Shown here piece by piece: positions 8,183-27,598 of a stretch of 64,000 nucleotides of DNA. The translations under genes were made by a program, and so were the position numbers. Below the pieces are notes generated by a model that was not told where the DNA came from, did no database searches, and saw only the letters and a program-made list of their open reading frames with translations. Every line of letters starts with the position of its first letter. Position 1 is the stretch's first letter. Source of the DNA: Archaeoglobus neptunius (GTDB lineage Archaea; Halobacteriota; Archaeoglobi; Archaeoglobales; Archaeoglobaceae); contig NZ_JAEKIW010000009.1 of NCBI RefSeq assembly GCF_016757965.1, positions 1-64,000 of the forward strand, read 5' to 3'.

Positions 8183-9310
8183 GTGGTGGGCGTGGGTTCA
8201 GAGGTTTTTGAAGTCGAGCAGGTGAGTAGTGAGACACGGAGTATCGAGCAGATAGAGTATGCGCTGAAGGAGCTGATTGCAGGCAACTGGACTGTGAGGC
8301 TGGAGAGAGCGGAGGATGAGAGGTACAGCCAGATCTTTGAGCTAATAAACACTCTGGCAGCAGATCTGGGATCGCTTTTTGGAGAGATGGTAAAGGCAAT
8401 GAAAGAAACTGAAGAGATGGCAAAGGAGAATATGGAAGCCATCAGCCAGCTCAATGCCGGGATGCAGCAGATTTCATCAGCTTCACAGCAGATCGCAACC
8501 GGGGCAGAGAATCTCTCAAGACTTGCGAACAGTTCTCACGCTCTTGTCAGGGAAACGATGAATCTTTTTGAACTTCTAAATGACAACATAGCGGAATCCA
8601 GCAAGTATGCAAACAGCGCAATGGAGTATGCAGAACAGGCGAGAGAAAGCGGGGAGGTTGCACTTGGGAAACTGAAAGAAATGATCCACGAAATAGAGCT
8701 TGCAGGCAGCATCGTCGAGGAGCTTAACAACACCGTCAAGAACATAGGAAAGGTTACGGAGAGAATCAAATCCATTGCAGACCAGACCAATCTCCTCGCC
8801 CTTAATGCAGCAATTGAGGCTGCAAGGGCAGGAGAGCATGGCAGAGGGTTTGCCGTTGTTGCGGACGAGGTCAGAAAGCTTGCCGAGGAGAGCAGAAAGA
8901 GCACGGAGGAGATTGCAGAGATCGTGAGGAGTGTTCAGGAGGGGACCAGCAAGGTTATCGAGGCTGTCAGGAAAGCCAAAATGGAATCCGATGAGGGTGG
9001 AGACAAAATTAATGCAGCCCTCAAAATGGCCGAGGAGATAGGAAATATGGTTGGAGTGATAGGCGAAAAACTGCAAGAGGTGGCGAAGGAGTCCAGGAGG
9101 GGGGTGGAGAAGCTTGAGAGTCTGGTAAAGAACATTGAAGAGGTCGCATCAACTGCAGAAGAAGCCGCAGCAGCAAGTGAGGAATCCTCTGCGGCCATAG
9201 AGGAGCAGACCGCAGCCGTGCAGCAGATAGCCAACGGCTCCGAGAGATTGCTGCAAATTGCGCAGGACAATATGGAGGTTCTGATGCAGAGATTCAGAAA
9301 TCTCACCTAA
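8183..9310 (+). CDS. soluble methyl-accepting chemotaxis protein 1
   Basis: An MCP of 375 residues with no transmembrane segment and no periplasmic domain, so it should signal from the cytoplasm. The N-terminal ~70 residues look like one HAMP-type unit ([20 protein letters not shown]). A long coiled coil follows with the highly conserved signalling tip ([20 protein letters not shown] and [18 protein letters not shown]). Gln/Glu-rich segments ([20 protein letters not shown]) hold likely methylation and deamidation sites. GTG codons at 8183, 8186 and 8192 are all possible starts; 8192 has the best-placed purine-rich site. A 140-nt part of the hairpin tip is almost identical to MCP 2. Confidence 0.92.
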
Positions 9311-9348
9311 GGTGGTTCCAGTTTAAATGTCCAGGTTTTGTCAAAAGT

Positions 9349-9371
9349 AATGCAGCTTTCCTGCATTTTTT
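9349..9371. terminator. hairpin plus T-tract terminator between convergent genes
   Basis: AATGCAG (9349-9355), loop CTTTC, and CTGCATT (9361-9367) form a perfect 7-bp stem followed by a run of T to 9371. It lies between the stops of the plus-strand MCP (9310) and the minus-strand regulator (9379). Hairpin terminators of this bacterial look are unusual in archaea, where T-tracts alone normally end transcription. Confidence 0.55.
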
Positions 9372-9378
9372 CAGGCAT

Positions 9379-9666
9379 TTATACTGAGAACTCCAGTTCT
9401 TTTAAAATTTCAAAAATCATCCTTCCCTTTTCAGTCAGGCTGTACATATCCGACTTTTTTTCAACTATTGCGTACTCCATCAAAGTTTTTAAATGTCTGC
9501 TCAGAACTCCGGGATTCAACCTGGTTTCCAGCATCAGGTGGGTAAATTTAAGCGAGTTGATTTCAAGGCAGGATAGAATTTCAGTTACACCAGATCGGGC
9601 CAGGATTTTCAAGATGTCTTCTTTTTTATACACGACCCGAGGGTTGGTTACATTTTCAGCACCCAC
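9379..9666 (-). CDS. winged-helix transcriptional regulator 2
   Basis: A 95-residue paralogue of the regulator at 7818-8090. The winged helix runs from EILSCLEINSLKFTHLMLET through LNPGVLSRHLKTLMEY to the wing KSDMYSLTEKGRMIF. It begins with GTG at 9666, with GGTGAG about 10 nt upstream; the TATA-like CTTTTTAAC lies at 9706-9714 on the minus strand. It is divergent from soluble MCP 2, so both could be controlled from the shared 237-nt gap. The inducer is unknown. Confidence 0.75.
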   Translation of the reverse strand: MGAENVTNPRVVYKKEDILKILARSGVTEILSCLEINSLKFTHLMLETRLNPGVLSRHLKTLMEYAIVEKKSDMYSLTEKGRMIFEILKELEFSV

Positions 9667-9903
9667 TCTCTCACCCTGATTAAGATTACCAGTACTATCA
9701 TTAATTGTTAAAAAGTTTTTCGCAATACGAGAAATTAATTATCCAAATTTTGAAATGAAATATGAAAAAGGGATGACAACTTTGTATTTTTTTATCGACT
9801 TTTTTAATGAAATTCATTTCTTTCATTGATGTGCTGAAATTTTATGTTAGAAATTATATTGTATTACGAAAATTTTATACGTTTTGTATAACGTGCATTT
9901 GTT
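9667..9903. promoter_or_regulatory. AT-rich divergent control region, regulator 2 and MCP 2
   Basis: A 237-nt gap with no gene. The minus-strand promoter uses CTTTTTAAC at 9706-9714, with CGCAATACGA (9721-9730) just upstream of it. The plus-strand promoter has AAATTTTATAC at about 9870-9880, giving a probably leaderless mRNA for the ATG at 9904. Just after it, TATAC-GTTTT-GTATA (9876-9890) is an inverted repeat with 5-bp arms, placed to block initiation. GTATTACGAAAA (9861-9872) resembles the AATACGA motif. Confidence 0.45.
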
Positions 9904-18431: not shown

Positions 18432-19412
18432 TTAAAAATTTTGTGCTGGAAACTCGATTAGAAAAGAAGCGCCCTTTTCGAAACCTTCCTCAAGCCTGAT
18501 GCAAGCTCCGTAAGTTTCAAGTAGTTTTCTCACAATATAAAGACCCAATCCGCTGCCCGATCCGGAAGTGACACCCCTTTCAAAAATTCCTTCTTTCATA
18601 CCTTCAGGAATGCCAGTACCGTTATCTCTGACTCTTATGTATATTTTGTCATCCTCCCACACCTCTATCTGGATCTCACTGGCTCCACCGTGCTTTATGG
18701 CATTTCCAATGAGATTCTCGAAAACGCTGTAAATACCGTCATTAGCTCTGACCTCTGCGTCGCCTATCAGCTCGATTTTAATATCATGACCCTTTGCGAC
18801 CTCTTCAACAACCTCACTTATTTTGTAGGTATCCGTAATACCATCACTGGCCAGTTCGAGGGCTTTTATTTTCCCGATAAGCTCTGTTCCTTTTTCTATA
18901 CTCTCTCTGATTTTTGAGAGTAACTCTTTGTTGAAACTTTCCTCCAGAATCTCGGTGTACGAGTATATGCTGGTGAACACGTTAAGTATATCGTGCCTCA
19001 TAACGCTGTTCAGAAATTTGAGATGGTTCAGGAGGTCATTAATTTTTTCCTGCATTTCTATTCTGTCTGAAACATCGGTAAAGATCAGAACATAGTGTTT
19101 CTCTTTGCCGCTACCTACCACGCTGAATCTGACCTCATTCCACTGATATCCATCCTTTTTAATGGCTTTAATCAGGAGCGGGTATGGTATTTTGTCAATA
19201 CCTCCTTTCAGGGCTTTTTTAAAAGAATTGACTACCAGATCTTTACTGTCGGGATGAATGGCGGCGAAAGGATCTTTTTCGAAGTTATCCGGGTTAATCC
19301 CGGTTTTCTTGACTATTCTGTTGTTGATATATAAGAGCTTCCCACCAGAGTCGAAAATTGCAATTCCTGCTGGGAGATCATCAATTATCCTTTTCCAGTC
19401 TATCATTGACAA
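18432..19412 (-). CDS. PAS-domain sensor histidine kinase (soluble)
   Basis: A 326-residue cytoplasmic kinase. A PAS domain (about 8-125, from LPAGIAIFDSGGKLLYINN to IFTDVSDRIE) precedes the His box VMRHDILNVFTSIYSY and an ATPase domain with N box FENLIGNAIKHG, G1 VRDNGTGIPEG and G2 GSGSGLGLYIVRKLLE. There are no membrane helices and no receiver gene next to it, as in many archaeal orphan kinases. It starts 36 nt after the RuBisCO stop on the same strand, so it may be co-transcribed with it. Confidence 0.9.
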   Translation of the reverse strand: MSMIDWKRIIDDLPAGIAIFDSGGKLLYINNRIVKKTGINPDNFEKDPFAAIHPDSKDLVVNSFKKALKGGIDKIPYPLLIKAIKKDGYQWNEVRFSVVGSGKEKHYVLIFTDVSDRIEMQEKINDLLNHLKFLNSVMRHDILNVFTSIYSYTEILEESFNKELLSKIRESIEKGTELIGKIKALELASDGITDTYKISEVVEEVAKGHDIKIELIGDAEVRANDGIYSVFENLIGNAIKHGGASEIQIEVWEDDKIYIRVRDNGTGIPEGMKEGIFERGVTSGSGSGLGLYIVRKLLETYGACIRLEEGFEKGASFLIEFPAQNF

Positions 19413-19448: not shown

Positions 19449-20768
19449 TTAAACCGGTGTTGTCTTTCCCCACTTTTCAAGTGCTCTTTTGAGCTCTGCG
19501 TGCTTCTCAGCGTAATCTTCCAGCGGAATGTTCTGGAATATGGCGTAGAGTGCCTGCCTGACTGCTCTGGCACCTGCCAGAGGGCCATCAGGGTGACCGA
19601 GAGTTCCGCCACCGACCTGTATCACAATATCGCCTCCAAGTGCCTCGATCACCGGTTTCAGGTTGCCCGGATGCAGTCCACCCGAGGAGACGGGCATTGC
19701 CGGTTTTATGTGGTAGAATTCCTGCCTCATATGGTAAACGTCCCCGTTTTCTGGCTCGAAAACATCCTTGCTGAAAACTCTGGCGTACTGTACAACCTCC
19801 CTCCTGCCACCTTCGAGCTTTCCTGCCCCTGCAGTACCAACATGAAGCTGGTCGATACCTATTATGCGGTAAAGCTTTGCCAGAACGAACATCGAGATCC
19901 CGTGAGATGGATTTCTGGTAAATGCAGCATGCATGGCCCTGTGACCGTGAATAGCAAGTCCGTAATCTCCGGCAAGGTCTCTGATGTACTCCAGAGCTCC
20001 CCACCCTGTAACAACGACATCAACCATCACGTACGGATTTCCGAGTTCCGCAACGAGCTTGAGTCTTCTCTCCATCTCGCGAATGTCGGATGTTATGTTT
20101 GCAAACCACACCTTCTTTTCTCCAGTCTCACTCTCCACCCTTTCTATTACTCTCATTATCCTGTTTGCCCTCTCCTCAAATCTGCAGTAGTCGGGACTGG
20201 TGAGGTTCTCGTCGTCCTTTATGTAGTCCATTCCCCCGCTCAGCAGATCATAGGCAAGTTTCTCCACCTCTTCGGGAGAGTATCCCACCTTTGGTTTTGG
20301 CACGGTTCCGACTATCGGCCTGTCCTTAACCCCGAATATTTTTCTGACCCCGTCTCTACCCATTCCCGGTCCTTTAAAACCTTTCAGGAACTTTTCCGGG
20401 AAATATAGGTCTTCCAGCCTCAGGCCGGCGACCCTCTTCATTCCGAAAACGTTTCCGGCAATTGATGCGAGCAATCCCGGCATGTTGTGCAGTTCGAACA
20501 GTTCAACGGGATAGGCAATCTTCACGATCCATGAATCACCCGTTCTGTGAAAATCGTAGGCTCTGGCGGAAAGATCTTTGACCCTCTTTTCATCATACCA
20601 GTTGTAGAGGGTTGTCCAGGTTCCGGTGCTGCTCTCGGCAGCAACAGCACCTGCCGCATCTTCAATGCTGAAACCTCCGGCGGGTTGAATTCTGAAAACC
20701 GCAATTACATTCTCTCTCAGATCGGGTTCATAGCTTCTGTCAACGTACTCCCCATACATCTCGAACAT
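19449..20768 (-). CDS. rbcL: form III ribulose-bisphosphate carboxylase large chain
   Basis: A 439-residue RuBisCO. Active-site motifs are intact: KPK (158-160), the carbamylated Lys in GGMDYIKDDENLTS (KDDE at 184-187), HGHRAMHAAFTR, SSGGLHPG and GGGTLGHPDGP. Length and the absence of a small-subunit gene fit archaeal form III, which uses ribulose bisphosphate made from nucleoside monophosphates; the other genes of that AMP pathway are not in the window. A TATA element at about 20791-20799 gives a leaderless start at 20768. A histidine kinase gene follows 36 nt downstream. Confidence 0.96.
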   Translation of the reverse strand: MFEMYGEYVDRSYEPDLRENVIAVFRIQPAGGFSIEDAAGAVAAESSTGTWTTLYNWYDEKRVKDLSARAYDFHRTGDSWIVKIAYPVELFELHNMPGLLASIAGNVFGMKRVAGLRLEDLYFPEKFLKGFKGPGMGRDGVRKIFGVKDRPIVGTVPKPKVGYSPEEVEKLAYDLLSGGMDYIKDDENLTSPDYCRFEERANRIMRVIERVESETGEKKVWFANITSDIREMERRLKLVAELGNPYVMVDVVVTGWGALEYIRDLAGDYGLAIHGHRAMHAAFTRNPSHGISMFVLAKLYRIIGIDQLHVGTAGAGKLEGGRREVVQYARVFSKDVFEPENGDVYHMRQEFYHIKPAMPVSSGGLHPGNLKPVIEALGGDIVIQVGGGTLGHPDGPLAGARAVRQALYAIFQNIPLEDYAEKHAELKRALEKWGKTTPV

Positions 20769-20882: not shown

Positions 20883-21866
20883 ATGCCGGATATCGTTCAG
20901 GTTGAGGTTTCCACAAAATGTCAGCTTAACTGCCTCATGTGTCCCCTTTCCGCCTTCAAAGATGTATGGACTGGAAAGAATATGGAAATGGACGTATTCC
21001 TGTCAATTCCATTCAAAAGGTTTCGCTATGCGCACCTTCAGGGATGGGGAGAACCCCTGCTTAATCCCTCTATCGGAGATATGATTGAGCTGGCATCGAA
21101 GTACTGCAGTGTTGGTTTGACCACCAACGGTCTGCTCATTGAAAAGCACATCGATACCCTGCTCAAAACAGACCTTGTTGCTGTTTCAGTTGGGGGTGGA
21201 AAGGCGTCAGTGCACGAAGATGTCAGGAAAAGCAGTCTTGAGAAGATCCTGAATGGGATAAAAACGCTATCGGAACAGCGAGTAAACAAAAGACCTAGAA
21301 TCGTTATACCAACCCTTATGCTCAGAAACACCATCAAAAGCCTTCCCCAACTCATCGACCTCGCCCATCAGCACGGGGCAGATGAGGTCATAGCGAACAA
21401 CTTTGATTACATCCCCACTCGTCATCATGCGAGGTTCAGGGTTTTCGGGACTAAGGCGAGTCCTGAAGTTGAGGAAGCAATCAGTGAGGCAGAAAAAAGG
21501 GCAGAAGAGCTTGGAATTGGTTTCACAGCCAGACCGAGAGTTATGGAAGAGGCTCTCGTCTGTGCGGAGAATCCCGTGAATAACTGTCTTGTGACGGTTG
21601 ATGGTAAAATCGCCCCCTGTGTTTATCTGCATTTGCCAACTTCATCGGATTACATTTCGAGGTACTTTGAAGGCAGGGAGTTTCTGGTTCCGAAGGTGTA
21701 CTTCGGTACGGTGCAGGATTTTGACAGAGTGTGGGGAAATCGAAACTACCGAACTTTCAGAAGGATGTTTGAAAGGAGGCTTTCCCTTCTGAGGCAGTTT
21801 TTCTCCTTCAGCCCCTCACCACTGCCTGACGTGTGCAAAACCTGCTACAAGGCATACTCAGTGTAA
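20883..21866 (+). CDS. radical SAM protein with C-terminal cysteine cluster
   Basis: A 327-residue radical SAM enzyme. The SAM-binding cluster is CQLNCLMC (Cys 13, 17, 20), with a GWGEPLLNP segment and a TTNGLLI strand typical of the barrel. Further cysteines near the C-terminus (VCAENPVNNC, IAPCVYLH and DVCKTCYKA) suggest a SPASM-like auxiliary cluster domain. The substrate is not known. It is divergent from the RuBisCO gene across 114 nt and overlaps the convergent beta-propeller gene by 9 nt. Confidence 0.88.
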   Translation: MPDIVQVEVSTKCQLNCLMCPLSAFKDVWTGKNMEMDVFLSIPFKRFRYAHLQGWGEPLLNPSIGDMIELASKYCSVGLTTNGLLIEKHIDTLLKTDLVAVSVGGGKASVHEDVRKSSLEKILNGIKTLSEQRVNKRPRIVIPTLMLRNTIKSLPQLIDLAHQHGADEVIANNFDYIPTRHHARFRVFGTKASPEVEEAISEAEKRAEELGIGFTARPRVMEEALVCAENPVNNCLVTVDGKIAPCVYLHLPTSSDYISRYFEGREFLVPKVYFGTVQDFDRVWGNRNYRTFRRMFERRLSLLRQFFSFSPSPLPDVCKTCYKAYSV

Positions 21867-22799
21867 GCTGTACAGTGACAGGCTTTTGTTACTCACGGCA
21901 ACCAGCCCATCCCCGAATTTCAGAGGCACACCGTCAACTTTGAGCCTTTCTTCAGTTTCACCATTCTCGGATAGAACAAGTATGGTATTCTTCGCACCGA
22001 CGTACATCCTGTCCTCGCAGTGCAGACTCACTGCCGGGGCATCAAGGGTTTTTTCCCACAGGACTTCGCCATCCTTAGTTATACATCTCAGCAGATTTCC
22101 GGACGATAAAAGTACAAACTCCCTCCCAGCGCTGACATCCGGGTTGCTGGCATGGATTCTCCATATCTCCGTCACATTATTGTTCAGTTCAAATAATATC
22201 GCTTCATTCCTATTTAGCACGATCACACCATTTCCAAAAGCCACCAGTTTTTTCACCGGGATGCTGAAAGTCCATTTGGGCTCCCCTTTCCTGCTGAAAA
22301 CGTACAGGTACCGATCAGTTCCAGCTATTATCCGGTCTTTGAGGAAAAGGAAGTCCTCCACCCTCCCGGCAACTCTTTTTTGAAATACTCTCTTCCTTTT
22401 GTGGGTGTAAACGTAAACGTACTCGTTCATGAATTCTGTACCGGCCGCCACAACGTCATTCCCGAGTTTTACGGCCGTTACATCTTCAGGTCTCCATCCC
22501 AGGCTTGCGGTCGTCGCAAACTGGTGTTCCCACAGCAGCTCTCCGTCGATTGTGTACAGGTAGAGCTTACCATCCATGAAGTTCGTTCCCACGGCTGCGA
22601 GTGATTGCCCAGCATCCAGTGCGGTTATGGCAACATCACCGTAGGGATCTCTGTAGAAGGTTGTGTGCATATCATGTCTCCATGAAAGCCCATCTAAATC
22701 GAAGCACAGGAGTCTGTTTCCTGAACTTACCAGAATGTGATCTTCAGCGATGGTTATACCGGATATTTCTCCTGTATTATACTTCCAGAGCCTGTACAT
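21858..22799 (-). CDS. beta-propeller repeat protein (PQQ/WD-like), cytoplasmic
   Basis: A 313-residue protein made of about seven repeats, each with a pattern such as ITIAEDHILVSSGNRLLCFDLDG, VGTNFMDGKLYLYTIDGELLWEH and LKDRIIAGTDRYLYVFSRKGEPKW. Aromatic and 'D/K-G-E-LW' turns are typical of PQQ-like or WD beta-propellers. There is no signal peptide, so it should be cytoplasmic and act as a binding scaffold. No catalytic residues are evident. It may form a unit with the convergent radical SAM gene or stand alone; function unknown. Confidence 0.7.
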   Translation of the reverse strand: MYRLWKYNTGEISGITIAEDHILVSSGNRLLCFDLDGLSWRHDMHTTFYRDPYGDVAITALDAGQSLAAVGTNFMDGKLYLYTIDGELLWEHQFATTASLGWRPEDVTAVKLGNDVVAAGTEFMNEYVYVYTHKRKRVFQKRVAGRVEDFLFLKDRIIAGTDRYLYVFSRKGEPKWTFSIPVKKLVAFGNGVIVLNRNEAILFELNNNVTEIWRIHASNPDVSAGREFVLLSSGNLLRCITKDGEVLWEKTLDAPAVSLHCEDRMYVGAKNTILVLSENGETEERLKVDGVPLKFGDGLVAVSNKSLSLYSLH

Positions 22800-22840: not shown

Positions 22841-24385
22841 TCAGCCGCCCCAGCCTGCTGTTGACCAGTACCAGCCGAGCACGAAGATCGACATCAGGGC
22901 TCCGAGTATGACGTTCACTATTGCTCCTGAGGAGAATGCGATCCACGGATTCTTGCCCGTTGCAGCAAGCTCTCTGAATCTCGTTGTAAGACCAATGCTG
23001 AAGAACGTGAATATGAACGTCCATGTTCTCATTGTTTTTATCGGTGCGACGAGCAGAGGTTTCATCTGGCTTGTGTAGACATCCATCGGCACTCCGACTG
23101 TCAGGATGGTTATGAACAGAGATGCCACGAAGAAACCGAGGACGAACTTTGGAAATCTCCACCAGATCTCCATTGCTGACGGTTTCTGCCCGGTTTCCTC
23201 CACTTCCCACCTTGTTGTGGCAATGATCGCCATCACGAAGGCCCAGAGACCGATCCAGATATCTCTGCCTATAACCTTCATCAGTGTGAAGGTTCTGATG
23301 GCTATGTCATCAACATCAACGCCAAGAGACTTTGCATGAGCGATTGCCTGCGCAACGGTCTGTCCTGTTCCGAAAACAATGGCGTTTGGCGGTAAGTTGG
23401 CGAATATGCTGCCATACGCAGCAGCCGCAGCAAATCCTGCTGCATCTGCAAACTCAGACGTTCCGATCCACGCTCCCGCAACACCCGGATGGAGGACAAG
23501 AGCTCTGCTGATGAGCGGAAGTGCGAAGATCATGATTATGGCCCAGACGATGACCGTGGTGATACCCATTGCAGCATGCTCTTTTCTGGCCCTAACCGCA
23601 GCCGACATCGCAATTGATGCCGAAACACCACAGACAGCTCCTCCAGCTCCAAGTACCGATGCAAAGCGCCTGTCCATTCCCAGAACCTTCGTTCCTACGA
23701 GGTATATTGTCACGAATGTTGAAACCGCTATTACCGTCGCCTGTATGAAGGCCACTGGTCCGGCGTATATGATCAGGGTGAACGGCAGCGTCGCACCGAG
23801 CAGGACGATACCGGTCTTAATATAGTATTCCACTCTGAACCCCGCATCCATCCACCTCGGCAGTATGTTCATGTTGCCTATAACCAGACCCACGATCAGT
23901 GCGAACAGTGGCGCTTCCAGGTTGTAGTGGTGCGCTGTTTCGTTTGCTGAAAACACGGCTATCAATACAGAGAATATATACACGAAGATGAACGCAGGCA
24001 CAAACTCGCTAGGTTTGAATCCCAGAATCGCACTGCTTATTGTGAACACCACCAGCCAGAAGATGAAGTTGGCGAAGTACCACCCTGCCTTTGCTGCAAA
24101 GTGCTGCCCCAGTATTGCATATCCCTCAGGTGTAAAGCTCCACTTGGGGGGATATACCGCCAGTGGTTTGAGTGTGCCTCCTGTGTAGTACAGTGCCGCC
24201 GCCAGTATGATTACGATGAAGGCCATCCACACTGCCCACCAGTCCTCTGTTTTCCAGAGAGTCTGCCATCCTCTTACCACTTCGACCCTGATCTCTTCCT
24301 CGAAACCGCATGCGGCGCATCTCCAGAGATCTTCGAGTTTTGCCATTGATTCTCCACATTTCGGACACTTTTTCTCATCACCCAT
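22841..24385 (-). CDS. YeiH/UPF0324 family transporter with N-terminal zinc ribbon
   Basis: A 514-residue membrane protein of the UPF0324 (YeiH, putative sulfate exporter) family, unusually long. The first ~35 residues form a zinc ribbon (CPKCGESM then CAACGFEEE). About 12 membrane helices follow, with an additional N-terminal pair not present in the second copy. Family-defining segments are LEAPLFALIVGLVIGN, the glycine/cysteine motif GAGGAVCGVSASIAMSAAV, and FTFFSIGLTTRFRELA. I start at ATG 24385, preceded by GAGAGGTGG; an in-frame TTG at 24400 is weaker. It is downstream of the membrane sensor gene, separated by a 103-nt region with three TGACG repeats. Confidence 0.85.
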   Translation of the reverse strand: MGDEKKCPKCGESMAKLEDLWRCAACGFEEEIRVEVVRGWQTLWKTEDWWAVWMAFIVIILAAALYYTGGTLKPLAVYPPKWSFTPEGYAILGQHFAAKAGWYFANFIFWLVVFTISSAILGFKPSEFVPAFIFVYIFSVLIAVFSANETAHHYNLEAPLFALIVGLVIGNMNILPRWMDAGFRVEYYIKTGIVLLGATLPFTLIIYAGPVAFIQATVIAVSTFVTIYLVGTKVLGMDRRFASVLGAGGAVCGVSASIAMSAAVRARKEHAAMGITTVIVWAIIMIFALPLISRALVLHPGVAGAWIGTSEFADAAGFAAAAAYGSIFANLPPNAIVFGTGQTVAQAIAHAKSLGVDVDDIAIRTFTLMKVIGRDIWIGLWAFVMAIIATTRWEVEETGQKPSAMEIWWRFPKFVLGFFVASLFITILTVGVPMDVYTSQMKPLLVAPIKTMRTWTFIFTFFSIGLTTRFRELAATGKNPWIAFSSGAIVNVILGALMSIFVLGWYWSTAGWGG

Positions 24386-24439
24386 TCTACCACCTCTCAA
24401 CTACCTCGCTTCCAACCAACGAATCCCACATTCATAACT

Positions 24440-24491
24440 CGGATTTTAATAAATATTAGAATATCGTCAAAAAAAGCGTCAAATAGCGTCA
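24440..24491 (-). promoter_or_regulatory. yeiH-1 promoter with three TGACG direct repeats
   Basis: On the minus strand TGACG occurs at 24491-24487, 24481-24477 and 24469-24465, that is with spacings of 10 and 12 nt, about one helical turn. The TATA-like AATATTTATTAAAA lies just downstream (about 24458-24445), and the yeiH-1 ATG at 24385 is about 60 nt further. The position upstream of the TATA box is that of an activator array. Confidence 0.5.
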
Positions 24492-26615
24492 GACCGCCCT
24501 CAACATCTCCTTTGCCTCATCTGTGACCTCCAGAGTCTTCAATCTTCCATCTTTAATAATTTTAATTAGCCCCTTATCTATAAGGTGTGTGATCCTTTTT
24601 TTGGCAGTATTTCTTGTTATGTTAAAATTGGACATCACATCCTTTATCGAGGGTCTGATCCCCATTCTGTTTTTGGAGTAGATGTATCTCAGCACATCGA
24701 AAATTTCGTTCGGCAGCTCAATGTCCTTGGCCTTGATTACAGCGCACTCCATCCTCAGAAGTTTCATTTCATTCTCACCTATCAAATCGCTGTCGGATAC
24801 AACAACAAGAACACCCTTGTTCAGAACAAAGAAGACATCTTTCAGCTTTTGCAGAAGCTCGTATACTTCTTCAAAATTTCTTTTTAGCAAAAGGTAGTCG
24901 AGATCGAGCAGTACAGCGTTTTTCCAGCCGGGCATGTTGACTATCTCTCTGTAGATTTTCTCAGGATCCGGTTCAAGAGTTCTCTCTTTCCTTCTTTCTG
25001 CCAGCATGAGATGGTTGTCCTCATGAACACCAATCAGCTCAGGATATCTTCTGCTGATCACCTTTCCAGTGTACCCGCATTTTATCAGATCGTTTATCAC
25101 ATCAACGGCCAGATCGAAACTTTCGGCAAAGTAAACCCTGCCTTTTTCGACCTCATATTTGAGCATTCTTCTCTCTGCTTCTCTTTCGCTCTCCTTTTTA
25201 AGTGAAACATCTCGTGATATTACTGAGAAACCTGTGAGTTCTCTTTGCTCATCAAACAGCGGTGAGATCGTAACCTCAACATCAATAACTCTGCCATCTT
25301 TCCTGAGTCTGCGCGTTTCGAATCTCAAATCCTCCTCACCACTCCTCAATCTTCTGATTATGAACTCTGTTTCGCTTTTTATTTCGTCCGGAAGTAGTTC
25401 AGAAGAGTTCATTCCAATTGCCTCGCTTTTGGTCCATCCAAAAAGCTTCTCTGCAGTTCTGTTCCAGCTTGTGATCACACCGTCCATGTTTACTGAGTAA
25501 ATTGCATCGTTGGAATTCTCAACAATATTGGCCAGATGCATGAGCTCTTTCTGAACCTCGAGAATTTCTCTGGTTCTTCTCTCCAGTTCTTCACAGGTAT
25601 TTTTGAGATCAATTTCCGCCTTTTTCCTTCTGGTTATGTCTCTCATAATGGCCACGAACCCGACGAGCTCATTTGAGGAGTCGTAGATGCTTGTGAGGGT
25701 CTGATCCACGATGAGCGTGCTCCCGTCTTTTCTTATTCTCAGGGATTCTATGTCCTTTACGTGTCCCTCCAGAACGGCTTTCCTGAAGTTTCTCCTGCAC
25801 TGCTCCCACTGCTCTCTCGGCAGCAGAAATGTTAGGGGTTTACCAATCGCCTCTTCAGCAGAGTATCCAAACATCATTTCTGCCCCTCTGTTCCATACCA
25901 TTATCCTGCTGTCCGTGTCCAGAATCACAATGGCATCAACCGAATGCTCTAGAATTTCTCTGAAAAAGGCCAGTTCTCTTTCTATTCTCTTTCTGTGACT
26001 GATATTTCTGGCAAAACATCTGTATATACCGTTTGCCCTCTTTACAGTCACCTCAAAAGAATGGAGGGTGCCGTTGAGTCCCAGAAACTCAAACTCAAAC
26101 TTATTTTCTTTTTCGAGCTTTTCGATTGGAAAGCTCTCAACAACGTCAGTTATCTTTCTTCCGGTGATTTCTTCATCCGAATAACCCATATAGTCTTTTA
26201 CATTAGGACTTGTGTATGTGATCTCGTAATTTTCATTAAGCTCAAACAACCAGCCATCAATCTCCTCCACAACACTTCTAAATCTTTCTTCGCTCTCTTT
26301 GAGCGATTTTCTTTCCCGTTCAAGCTCTTCGACCATCCAGTTAAATGTTCTTGCCAGTTCTTCAAATTCGTCTCCCGTTTCGACCTTAACCCGGTCAAGC
26401 TCACCGGAGACAACCTTTCTGAATGCCTCATTCATCCTTTCGATCGGCTCGAGAATGCTGCCCGCCACGAACAGTGCTACTATTGCGATCACTATGGAAA
26501 CATAGATGTAATGGGAAACGTCAATTCCACTTATTTCAACAACTGAAATTCCCAGTGCGAGGGATAAAGCGGAAATGAAAAGAAGCAGCAGTAAGAATTT
26601 ACCGAACAGCCTCAT
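24489..26615 (-). CDS. membrane HAMP-PAS-PAS-PAS-DUF835 sensor with C-terminal winged helix
   Basis: A 708-residue sensor. Two membrane helices (about 6-28 and 36-54) with only a short outer loop precede a HAMP domain (to about 105) and three PAS domains (about 108-215, 220-345, 370-490). The next segment (about 500-625, MLKYEVEKGRVYFAESFD to VVSDSDLIGENE) looks like DUF835. The last ~70 residues are a winged helix (IKDVMSNFNITRNTAKKRI, HLIDKGLIKIIKDG). There is no His box or ATPase domain, so it cannot be a kinase; it looks like a membrane-anchored transcription factor. The ATG at 26615 overlaps the yeiH-2 stop as ATGA; longer frames upstream lie inside yeiH-2. Confidence 0.8.
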   Translation of the reverse strand: MRLFGKFLLLLLFISALSLALGISVVEISGIDVSHYIYVSIVIAIVALFVAGSILEPIERMNEAFRKVVSGELDRVKVETGDEFEELARTFNWMVEELERERKSLKESEERFRSVVEEIDGWLFELNENYEITYTSPNVKDYMGYSDEEITGRKITDVVESFPIEKLEKENKFEFEFLGLNGTLHSFEVTVKRANGIYRCFARNISHRKRIERELAFFREILEHSVDAIVILDTDSRIMVWNRGAEMMFGYSAEEAIGKPLTFLLPREQWEQCRRNFRKAVLEGHVKDIESLRIRKDGSTLIVDQTLTSIYDSSNELVGFVAIMRDITRRKKAEIDLKNTCEELERRTREILEVQKELMHLANIVENSNDAIYSVNMDGVITSWNRTAEKLFGWTKSEAIGMNSSELLPDEIKSETEFIIRRLRSGEEDLRFETRRLRKDGRVIDVEVTISPLFDEQRELTGFSVISRDVSLKKESEREAERRMLKYEVEKGRVYFAESFDLAVDVINDLIKCGYTGKVISRRYPELIGVHEDNHLMLAERRKERTLEPDPEKIYREIVNMPGWKNAVLLDLDYLLLKRNFEEVYELLQKLKDVFFVLNKGVLVVVSDSDLIGENEMKLLRMECAVIKAKDIELPNEIFDVLRYIYSKNRMGIRPSIKDVMSNFNITRNTAKKRITHLIDKGLIKIIKDGRLKTLEVTDEAKEMLRAV

Positions 26616-27598
26616 ACGACACCACTCCCCATTAGCAGTCCCAGTACCGCAACTCCAATACCCCACCCACCGTATGCGACGAGCAGAGGTCTGATTCCTA
26701 CTCTCTGCACCCGTCTGAGGTTTACGGTATACCCGATGGCAGCAAGGGTTGTTGAGAAAACCACTGTTGCCACAGGCCTGAGAGTTTCGACAATCTCGCT
26801 GGGCAGGTAGGTTGTGGCAAAGAGGGCAACTCCCAGAAAGCTGACAACGTACCACGGGACATAAAACCGGCTTTCAGAGTACATTATTGACAGGATGAGT
26901 GCGACAAGGGCTATCATTGCAATTCTTATCCCCTTCACAGCCAGTGCCTCGTTCTCGACACCAAGAAACTGGGAGGAAATTTTGACAAGTCCGGTCTGGT
27001 GTAGCGTTGCTCCGGCGAGAACTGCATAATCTTCTGGGGTTATACCAGTAAAATGCGCAATCCCCGGATATATTATTGCTCCGGTTAGTCCAACAGCGGT
27101 TATGATCATAATTGCAGCCGAAAAATCTTCTTTTCTCGGTTTCAGTAGAGGGGAGATTATGGCTATTGCCGAAACACCACAGATACTGCTTCCACATGCA
27201 AGAAGGAGAGAAAACTGTTTGTTAATTCTGAGCAGCTTTGAAAGCCAGATAATTGAGATAAAAATTATTGATGCAACGAACAATGTTGCCACGACAACCT
27301 CCGGCTTGAATTCACCCAGATAGGGGATGTTGATATTAAGTCCGTAGAGCGTTATACCGACTGGCAGGAGAACCGCCAGAGATTTCTCGGCTGTCGACTT
27401 CTTTTTTTCATCATCCTGTATGTTTCCGGCTATTATTCCGAAAACAAGGGCGAGGAAAAGCGGCTCAAATGCCGGATCGTAGATGTTTATGATGTAAGCT
27501 ACAACCCCACATGAAAATAGGAGCAAAATGATGAGTACATCAGTTTTGCTGACTGCCAGCTCTTTTGCAAGATCGGGCATTTTTATTGTGTCAAGCAT
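26612..27598 (-). CDS. YeiH/UPF0324 family transporter, standard length
   Basis: A 328-residue membrane protein of the UPF0324 family with about ten helices. It shares with the longer copy the segments FEPLFLALVFGIIAGN and ACGSSICGVSAIAIISPLL, but lacks the zinc ribbon and the extra N-terminal helices. The family is described as putative sulfate exporters; evidence for the substrate is weak. Its stop overlaps the start of the sensor gene by 4 nt (ATGA), so transporter and sensor are co-translated. The promoter has TTTATATA at 27622-27629, leaderless. Confidence 0.85.
   Translation of the reverse strand: MLDTIKMPDLAKELAVSKTDVLIILLLFSCGVVAYIINIYDPAFEPLFLALVFGIIAGNIQDDEKKKSTAEKSLAVLLPVGITLYGLNINIPYLGEFKPEVVVATLFVASIIFISIIWLSKLLRINKQFSLLLACGSSICGVSAIAIISPLLKPRKEDFSAAIMIITAVGLTGAIIYPGIAHFTGITPEDYAVLAGATLHQTGLVKISSQFLGVENEALAVKGIRIAMIALVALILSIMYSESRFYVPWYVVSFLGVALFATTYLPSEIVETLRPVATVVFSTTLAAIGYTVNLRRVQRVGIRPLLVAYGGWGIGVAVLGLLMGSGVV

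Follow-up and report, generated by a model that had tools for sequence, protein, structure and literature searches.

A predicted membrane-bound one-component regulator and a conserved TGAC repeat upstream of YeiH-type transporter genes in the Archaeoglobus family

In Archaeoglobus neptunius, the gene for a predicted membrane sensor is enclosed by two genes for YeiH-type transporters, and a short repeat array separates it from the second of them. This locus raises the question of whether the sensor controls the transporter gene behind the repeats and, if so, which ion that transporter moves. The window analysed here is a stretch of 64,000 nucleotides (contig NZ_JAEKIW010000009.1, positions 1 to 64,000), and its cassette was compared with those of related genomes.

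Gene order and distribution of the cassette

A preliminary description of the window had placed yeiH-2 (here YS), the sensor gene, the array, and yeiH-1 (here YL) on one strand, with an ATGA overlap between YS and the sensor, and this order held (Table 1). All are on the minus strand and are transcribed in the order YS, sensor, a 100-bp gap with the repeats, YL, and a beta-propeller gene. The YL start is an ATG preceded by the Shine-Dalgarno sequence GAGGTGG, from which the 514 residues are counted. The YS/sensor overlap may point to a single transcript and translational coupling, an inference made from sequence alone. The window also encodes a type III RuBisCO large subunit (19449–20768; TIGR03326, 693 bits) and a radical SAM/SPASM protein (20883–21866), whose best match, a tungsten cofactor oxidoreductase maturase, is under the cut-off.

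Table 1 Features of the cassette in the window of A. neptunius
Feature	Position	Strand	Evidence
YS, short YeiH-type transporter, 328 aa	26612..27598	-	TIGR00698 356.7 bits (cut-off 232.6); PF03601 252.8 bits
ATGA overlap, YS stop/sensor start	26612..26615	-	Sequence
Sensor, two TM helices-HAMP-three PAS-DUF835-winged helix, 708 aa	24489..26615	-	Pfam, 29-row alignment, model
HAMP domain, residues 49–99	26319..26471	-	PF00672 47 bits
Three PAS domains, residues about 121–204, 213–334, 360–470	25206..26255	-	Pfam and TIGR00229, model
DUF835 (RecA/KaiC-like), residues 501–623	24747..25115	-	PF05763 62.5 bits (gathering cut-off 33.1); Foldseek RecA, FlaH
Cys624, invariant, between DUF835 and winged helix	24744..24746	-	29/29 sensors
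C-terminal winged helix, residues 636–706, recognition helix RNTAKKR	24498..24710	-	Model, Foldseek, alignment
Putative operator, three direct TGAC repeats, 10 and 12 bp apart	24461..24491	-	Pattern, weight matrix, aligned sites
TATA-like stretch TAATATTTAT, directly downstream of operator	24448..24457	-	Conserved TAA-AT columns; promoter role inferred
YL1, long YeiH-type transporter with N-terminal zinc ribbon, 514 aa	22841..24385	-	PF03601 146.5 bits
PQQ-type beta-propeller gene, travels with YL1	21858..22799	-	PF13360

The preliminary description would have been refuted if the three genes were not neighbours in any relative. The neighbourhood search that it called for found them adjoining in most, across many genera: among 29 sensor genes (window and relatives), YS is directly upstream of 24 and YL directly downstream on the same strand of 26, with one of the remaining three at a contig border. 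The cassette is real, and the case for it is stronger than was then supposed. In genome G001, which we take to be A. fulgidus DSM 4304, it fits AF1617–AF1620. Full-length sensor homologues occur in 24 other genomes of the Archaeoglobus family, and in a 393-genome sample of the phylum, only this family gave matches that extend over DUF835 and the winged helix together, the others covering DUF835 alone. Outside Archaeoglobi, three Hydrothermarchaeota genomes have YS, the sensor, and the repeats (two TGAC copies and one inverted) with no YL behind them. Behind their operator (L083:5816, L085:6375, and L094:8278, plus strand) lies a conserved ORF of some 55 residues; it includes LWNTEEWWAVW, the signature found at the YL N-terminus, but lacks any membrane part.

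YS exceeds the curated cut-offs of both TIGR00698 and PF03601, while YL exceeds that of PF03601 only (TIGR00698, 79.7 vs 232.6 bits) and is longer and more distant. A solved YeiH structure was sought, and no PDB sequence matched YS. Two YL modules are found behind the sensor: YL1 with the beta-propeller gene, whose homologues (26–44% identity) directly follow YL1 in relatives, and YL2, which is accompanied by a small zinc-ribbon protein and a DUF5395 protein. The N-terminal zinc ribbon of the window YL1, which the preliminary description had missed, resembles the small protein of the YL2 module. The sensor tree requires several switches between YL1 and YL2. The window sensor falls in a supported clade of nine sensors; YL2 lies behind all eight others, yet the window has YL1, residues 28–514 of which share up to 85% identity with YL1 from other genera. 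The window is thus a swapped case in which the transporter was exchanged and the operator and leader were retained, which argues for the sensor and operator as the stable unit.

Several variant loci were also observed. YL2 of G001 (L049:7545–9067) is split into two overlapping reading frames, through a frameshift, a sequencing error, or a real split. In genus g12 (L042 and L059), a CGGC-domain protein gene lies upstream of the sensor, and YS is elsewhere, in a FeoB/radical SAM operon (L077). G021 (L079:3738–5173) carries an additional YS, behind which another sensor gene begins at the contig end. A distant YeiH gene at L073:3356–6035, as well as in L071 and L072, is accompanied by universal stress protein and TrmB-type regulator genes and has no operator. 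By analogy, this is possibly a further YeiH type that has a regulator to itself, and the arrangement recalls the Desulfovibrio vulgaris USP operon.

Domains and predicted fold of the sensor

The preliminary description had given the sensor two membrane helices, a HAMP domain, three PAS domains, DUF835, and no kinase module, all of which Pfam, the sequence, and the model bear out. Pfam found neither HisKA nor HATPase in the sensor, and the same run found both in the kinase at 18432–19406; the sensor is not a histidine kinase. Membrane location is predicted from two hydrophobic N-terminal helices. Because the loop between them is only about 6–12 residues long (sequence and full-length model, the latter with low confidence there), the sensor would have no extracytoplasmic domain.

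Whether the C-terminus is a winged helix was less evident, the Pfam match at residues 641–693 being weak and below the cut-off. The preliminary description had staked its claim on the last 70 residues or so adopting this fold, and in the structure prediction that it proposed they do. The AlphaFold model of residues 470–708 (15 aligned sequences) has a mean pLDDT of 85, with about 87–93 over most of the winged-helix block. Foldseek matched the last 75 residues to the winged helices of MepR (DNA-bound), BldR, and AF1382 (rmsd 1.3–2.2 Å) and the first part of the modelled segment to RecA-like proteins (RecA and FlaH). The model shows the sensor C-terminus as a winged helix behind a RecA-like DUF835. 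The full-length model (pLDDT 80.8) does not give the domain arrangement owing to its low pTM (0.38).

R668, N669, T670, and K672 of the recognition helix are invariant in the 29 aligned sensors. Cys624 is the sole invariant cysteine, and five other DUF835 proteins that were inspected have no equivalent at the corresponding position; Cys624 could conceivably react with sulfite or form a disulfide, which is only a guess. No histidine is invariant in the PAS region of the 29-row alignment, so heme sensing was rejected and no ligand can be named for the PAS domains.

A conserved TGAC element in front of YL

In the window, three TGACG copies are spaced by 10 and 12 bp, the first overlapping the TGA stop of the sensor gene itself. 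The gap sequences of all loci gave the consensus TGAYR-N5-TGACR-N7-TGACRAYAT, and the "TGACG array" of the preliminary description was therefore only partly correct, as the real element is this longer one with an adjoining TATA-like box. Regulon scans across genomes were done with patterns. The degenerate pattern occurs once in the window at up to two mismatches (0.01 expected). At up to one mismatch, it has 26 matches in 55 genomes, approximately one per genome, and none for the reversed pattern; nearly all of the 26 precede YL, and all but a few lie between the sensor and YL. A scan at three mismatches gave counts close to the reversed control and was uninformative. Pattern matches in G025, G048, and G054 were judged to be chance.

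A weight matrix built from 16 loci gave scores of 41–58 bits at sites withheld from it in several genera (G001, G003, G006, G019, G039, and G040), only 20–22 bits on sites of the divergent genus g11, and at most 8.2 bits in random (Markov) sequence of the same size. This null is somewhat optimistic, since an unexplained match in G006 (L053 at 5060), judged to be chance, reached 23.6 bits. Agreement in the operator columns is 84% (25 sites), compared with 49% in the leader downstream. The repeats stop a few bases before the conserved TAA-AT stretch, which we infer to be the probable TATA box of YL. The spacing of the direct repeats, close to one helical turn, suggests that they are bound head-to-tail on a single face of the DNA, as PhoB-type boxes are, and do not form a classic palindrome, although no binding data support this inference.

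Repeat spacing is altered at three loci (G013b, G002a, and G032b), and the first sensor gene of G019 has no operator beside it. G013 has a second operator before YS, in reverse orientation and also upstream of a TATA-like box; partial copies were seen by eye before YS in genomes related to G013. In G019, a second operator (41 bits, L062:8815–8863) precedes a gene (8907–9776) whose product belongs to the C_GCAxxG_C_C redox family and has a Tat signal and two CxxCH motifs; a UbiD gene follows it. The gene may be a second member of the regulon.

The preliminary description had only inferred that the sensor regulates yeiH-1 (YL). This claim is now supported by operator conservation, by a trans case, and by sensor-less controls, while binding itself remains inferred. 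In G040 (99% complete), contig C18 carries the sensor but no YL, which lies on C19 with the operator in front of it; the operator therefore belongs to the YL promoter rather than to the end of the sensor gene. YL is likewise preceded by the operator in G039, a genome only 76% complete in which no sensor was found. The operator is missing before YL in the sensor-less genomes G014, G016, G030, G035, and G038, and likewise in G225, from another family, which has YL without the sensor. Among YL genomes at least 90% complete, the operator is present in 18 of 18 with the sensor and in none of five without it (Fisher p = 3e-5, uncorrected for phylogeny). Joint presence might still reflect co-inheritance, as the two are neighbours in most genomes, but the trans and sensor-less cases speak against it. 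We consider it likely that the conserved triple repeat marks the promoter that the sensor controls, in the absence of DNA-binding or expression data.

Proposed mechanism, alternatives, and substrate

We propose that the sensor is likely a membrane-bound one-component regulator that switches sulfur-oxyanion transport; DNA binding, activation, signal, and substrate are all inferred. The preliminary description had suggested a self-contained membrane sensor-transcription factor acting on its own target promoter, which is supported in that the anchor and winged helix lie in one predicted polypeptide. Two helices would anchor the sensor, and since almost no loop joins them outside the membrane, its PAS domains, perhaps together with Cys624, would read a signal from the cytoplasm or from within the membrane. 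HAMP and PAS coiled coils would relay the change to the C-terminal winged helix by way of DUF835, a RecA-like domain serving as scaffold or oligomeriser. The three TGAC repeats, immediately upstream of the YL TATA box and thus in a position that suits an upstream activator, may then be occupied head-to-tail by several protomers, which would most likely activate YL; YL in turn would export or import a sulfur oxyanion (sulfite or sulfate) in Dsr sulfate reducers.

The same regulator and operator could instead work by repression, the third repeat covering the BRE until a signal frees YL under sulfite stress as an efflux defence. This is possible: the operator touches the TATA-like box, so that BRE occlusion is conceivable, and YeiH of Salmonella is stress-induced (PMC12880088). 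Against it, AF1617–AF1619 are highly expressed in ordinary growth of A. fulgidus (PMC3949148), and the G013 site before YS is likewise upstream of a TATA-like box in its opposite orientation, as suits an upstream activator. From this expression and the operator position, we hold activation to be roughly twice as likely as repression, although constant high expression in A. fulgidus does not demonstrate signal dependence.

It is unlikely that another factor, such as a neighbouring Lrp-type protein, binds the repeats while the sensor only contacts the transporters as a protein. A divergent Lrp-size gene does adjoin YS, both in the window and in three relatives from the same genus, but other genera retain the operator without having this gene next to the cassette; moreover, YL promoters lack the operator where the sensor is missing, and the sensor carries a conserved winged helix of its own. 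A role of the repeats in RNA, as a terminator of the YS-sensor transcript or a YL leader structure, can be all but dismissed. The T-rich spacers could terminate archaeal transcription, but TGAC is kept across sites and the T-runs are not, RNA folding is no better than that of shuffles (z = -0.96), Rfam gave nothing above the gathering score, and in G040 the element precedes YL where no sensor lies upstream.

Activation by the membrane-bound sensor remains our preferred reading, and the substrate is a separate matter. dsrA is present in 24 of 25 sensor genomes (sensor vs dsrA 24/1/9/21, p = 2.8e-7) and in 27 of 29 YL genomes (p = 7.3e-8; both Fisher, phylogeny ignored). The sensor and YL track dsrA, and the cassette is probably linked to sulfate respiration, as far as co-occurrence alone can tell. 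In Salmonella, YeiH is the principal factor for sulfite resistance (PMC12880088), and in Hyphomicrobium it is a candidate for sulfite export (PMC11582611). Together with the dsrA co-occurrence, these relatives favour a sulfur oxyanion, towards which we lean on balance; transport, direction, and ion are inferred indirectly. The control of anion transport, perhaps of a sulfur oxyanion, that the preliminary description had suggested thus has indirect support only. As a variant compatible with the main reading, YL may be the long-missing sulfate importer of Archaeoglobi and not a sulfite exporter. YL follows dsrA, the A. fulgidus genes are highly expressed, and sulfate import in Archaeoglobus is described as uncharacterised (PMC3949148); however, the best-studied YeiH relieves sulfite stress (PMC12880088), and CysP- and CysZ-type sulfate transporter candidates exist in Archaeoglobus (PMC5840216), so that we hold this variant only tentatively. 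A bolder reading, which we likewise hold only tentatively, is that archaeal sulfate reducers have in this cassette their regulated gateway for sulfur oxyanions: a membrane regulator of new architecture on head-to-tail TGAC repeats would switch whichever of two interchangeable long YeiH proteins is encoded behind its operator, and this transporter would be the sulfate importer (or sulfite valve) that is still unidentified in Archaeoglobi.

No description of this sensor architecture was found in the literature searched. ArnR and ArnR1 of Sulfolobus acidocaldarius (PMC6396743) similarly combine two membrane helices, a HAMP-like region, and an HTH in one archaeal protein, without a kinase and with promoter boxes before the target. 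In ArnR, however, the HTH is N-terminal and the helices C-terminal, the target is the archaellum, and there is neither a PAS array nor DUF835; membership of the sensor in the ArnR family was rejected because the order of parts is reversed. Transmembrane transcription regulators (PMC10269533) also join a membrane anchor to a DNA-binding domain, whereas the present sensor has three cytoplasmic PAS domains and DUF835 between anchor and wing and no outside domain; that survey has no mention of HAMP, wHTH, or Archaeoglobi in its main text. In Salmonella, a dedicated regulator gene beside yeiH controls it, again with a sulfur-oxyanion link, but YeiE is a soluble, sulfite-binding LysR-type protein with unrelated domains and operator (PMC12880088). 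DVU0539–0545 of Desulfovibrio vulgaris (PMC10102598) places a gene of the putative sulfate exporter family under dedicated signalling in a sulfate reducer, but through a classical two-component system with a histidine kinase and response regulator. The DUF835/iKaiC response regulators of Methanomicrobia and Thermoplasmata (PMC5847659) share PAS and DUF835 in one signalling protein, but are REC-PAS-DUF835 without a winged helix.

Archaeal membrane-bound regulators with known targets are few. Here, sensor, operator, and target can all be read from the sequence, the operator is nearly unique in each genome, and natural controls are at hand in which the sensor was relocated or lost or the transporter exchanged. 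DUF835 gains a plausible job as a relay between sensor domains and a DNA-binding domain. In A. fulgidus, where the role of the adjacent PAS gene AF1620 is unknown (PMC3949148), AF1617–AF1619 become a named candidate for sulfur-oxyanion transport in Archaeoglobus, and what may be a complete sensor-to-transporter switch tied to sulfate respiration is now open to testing.
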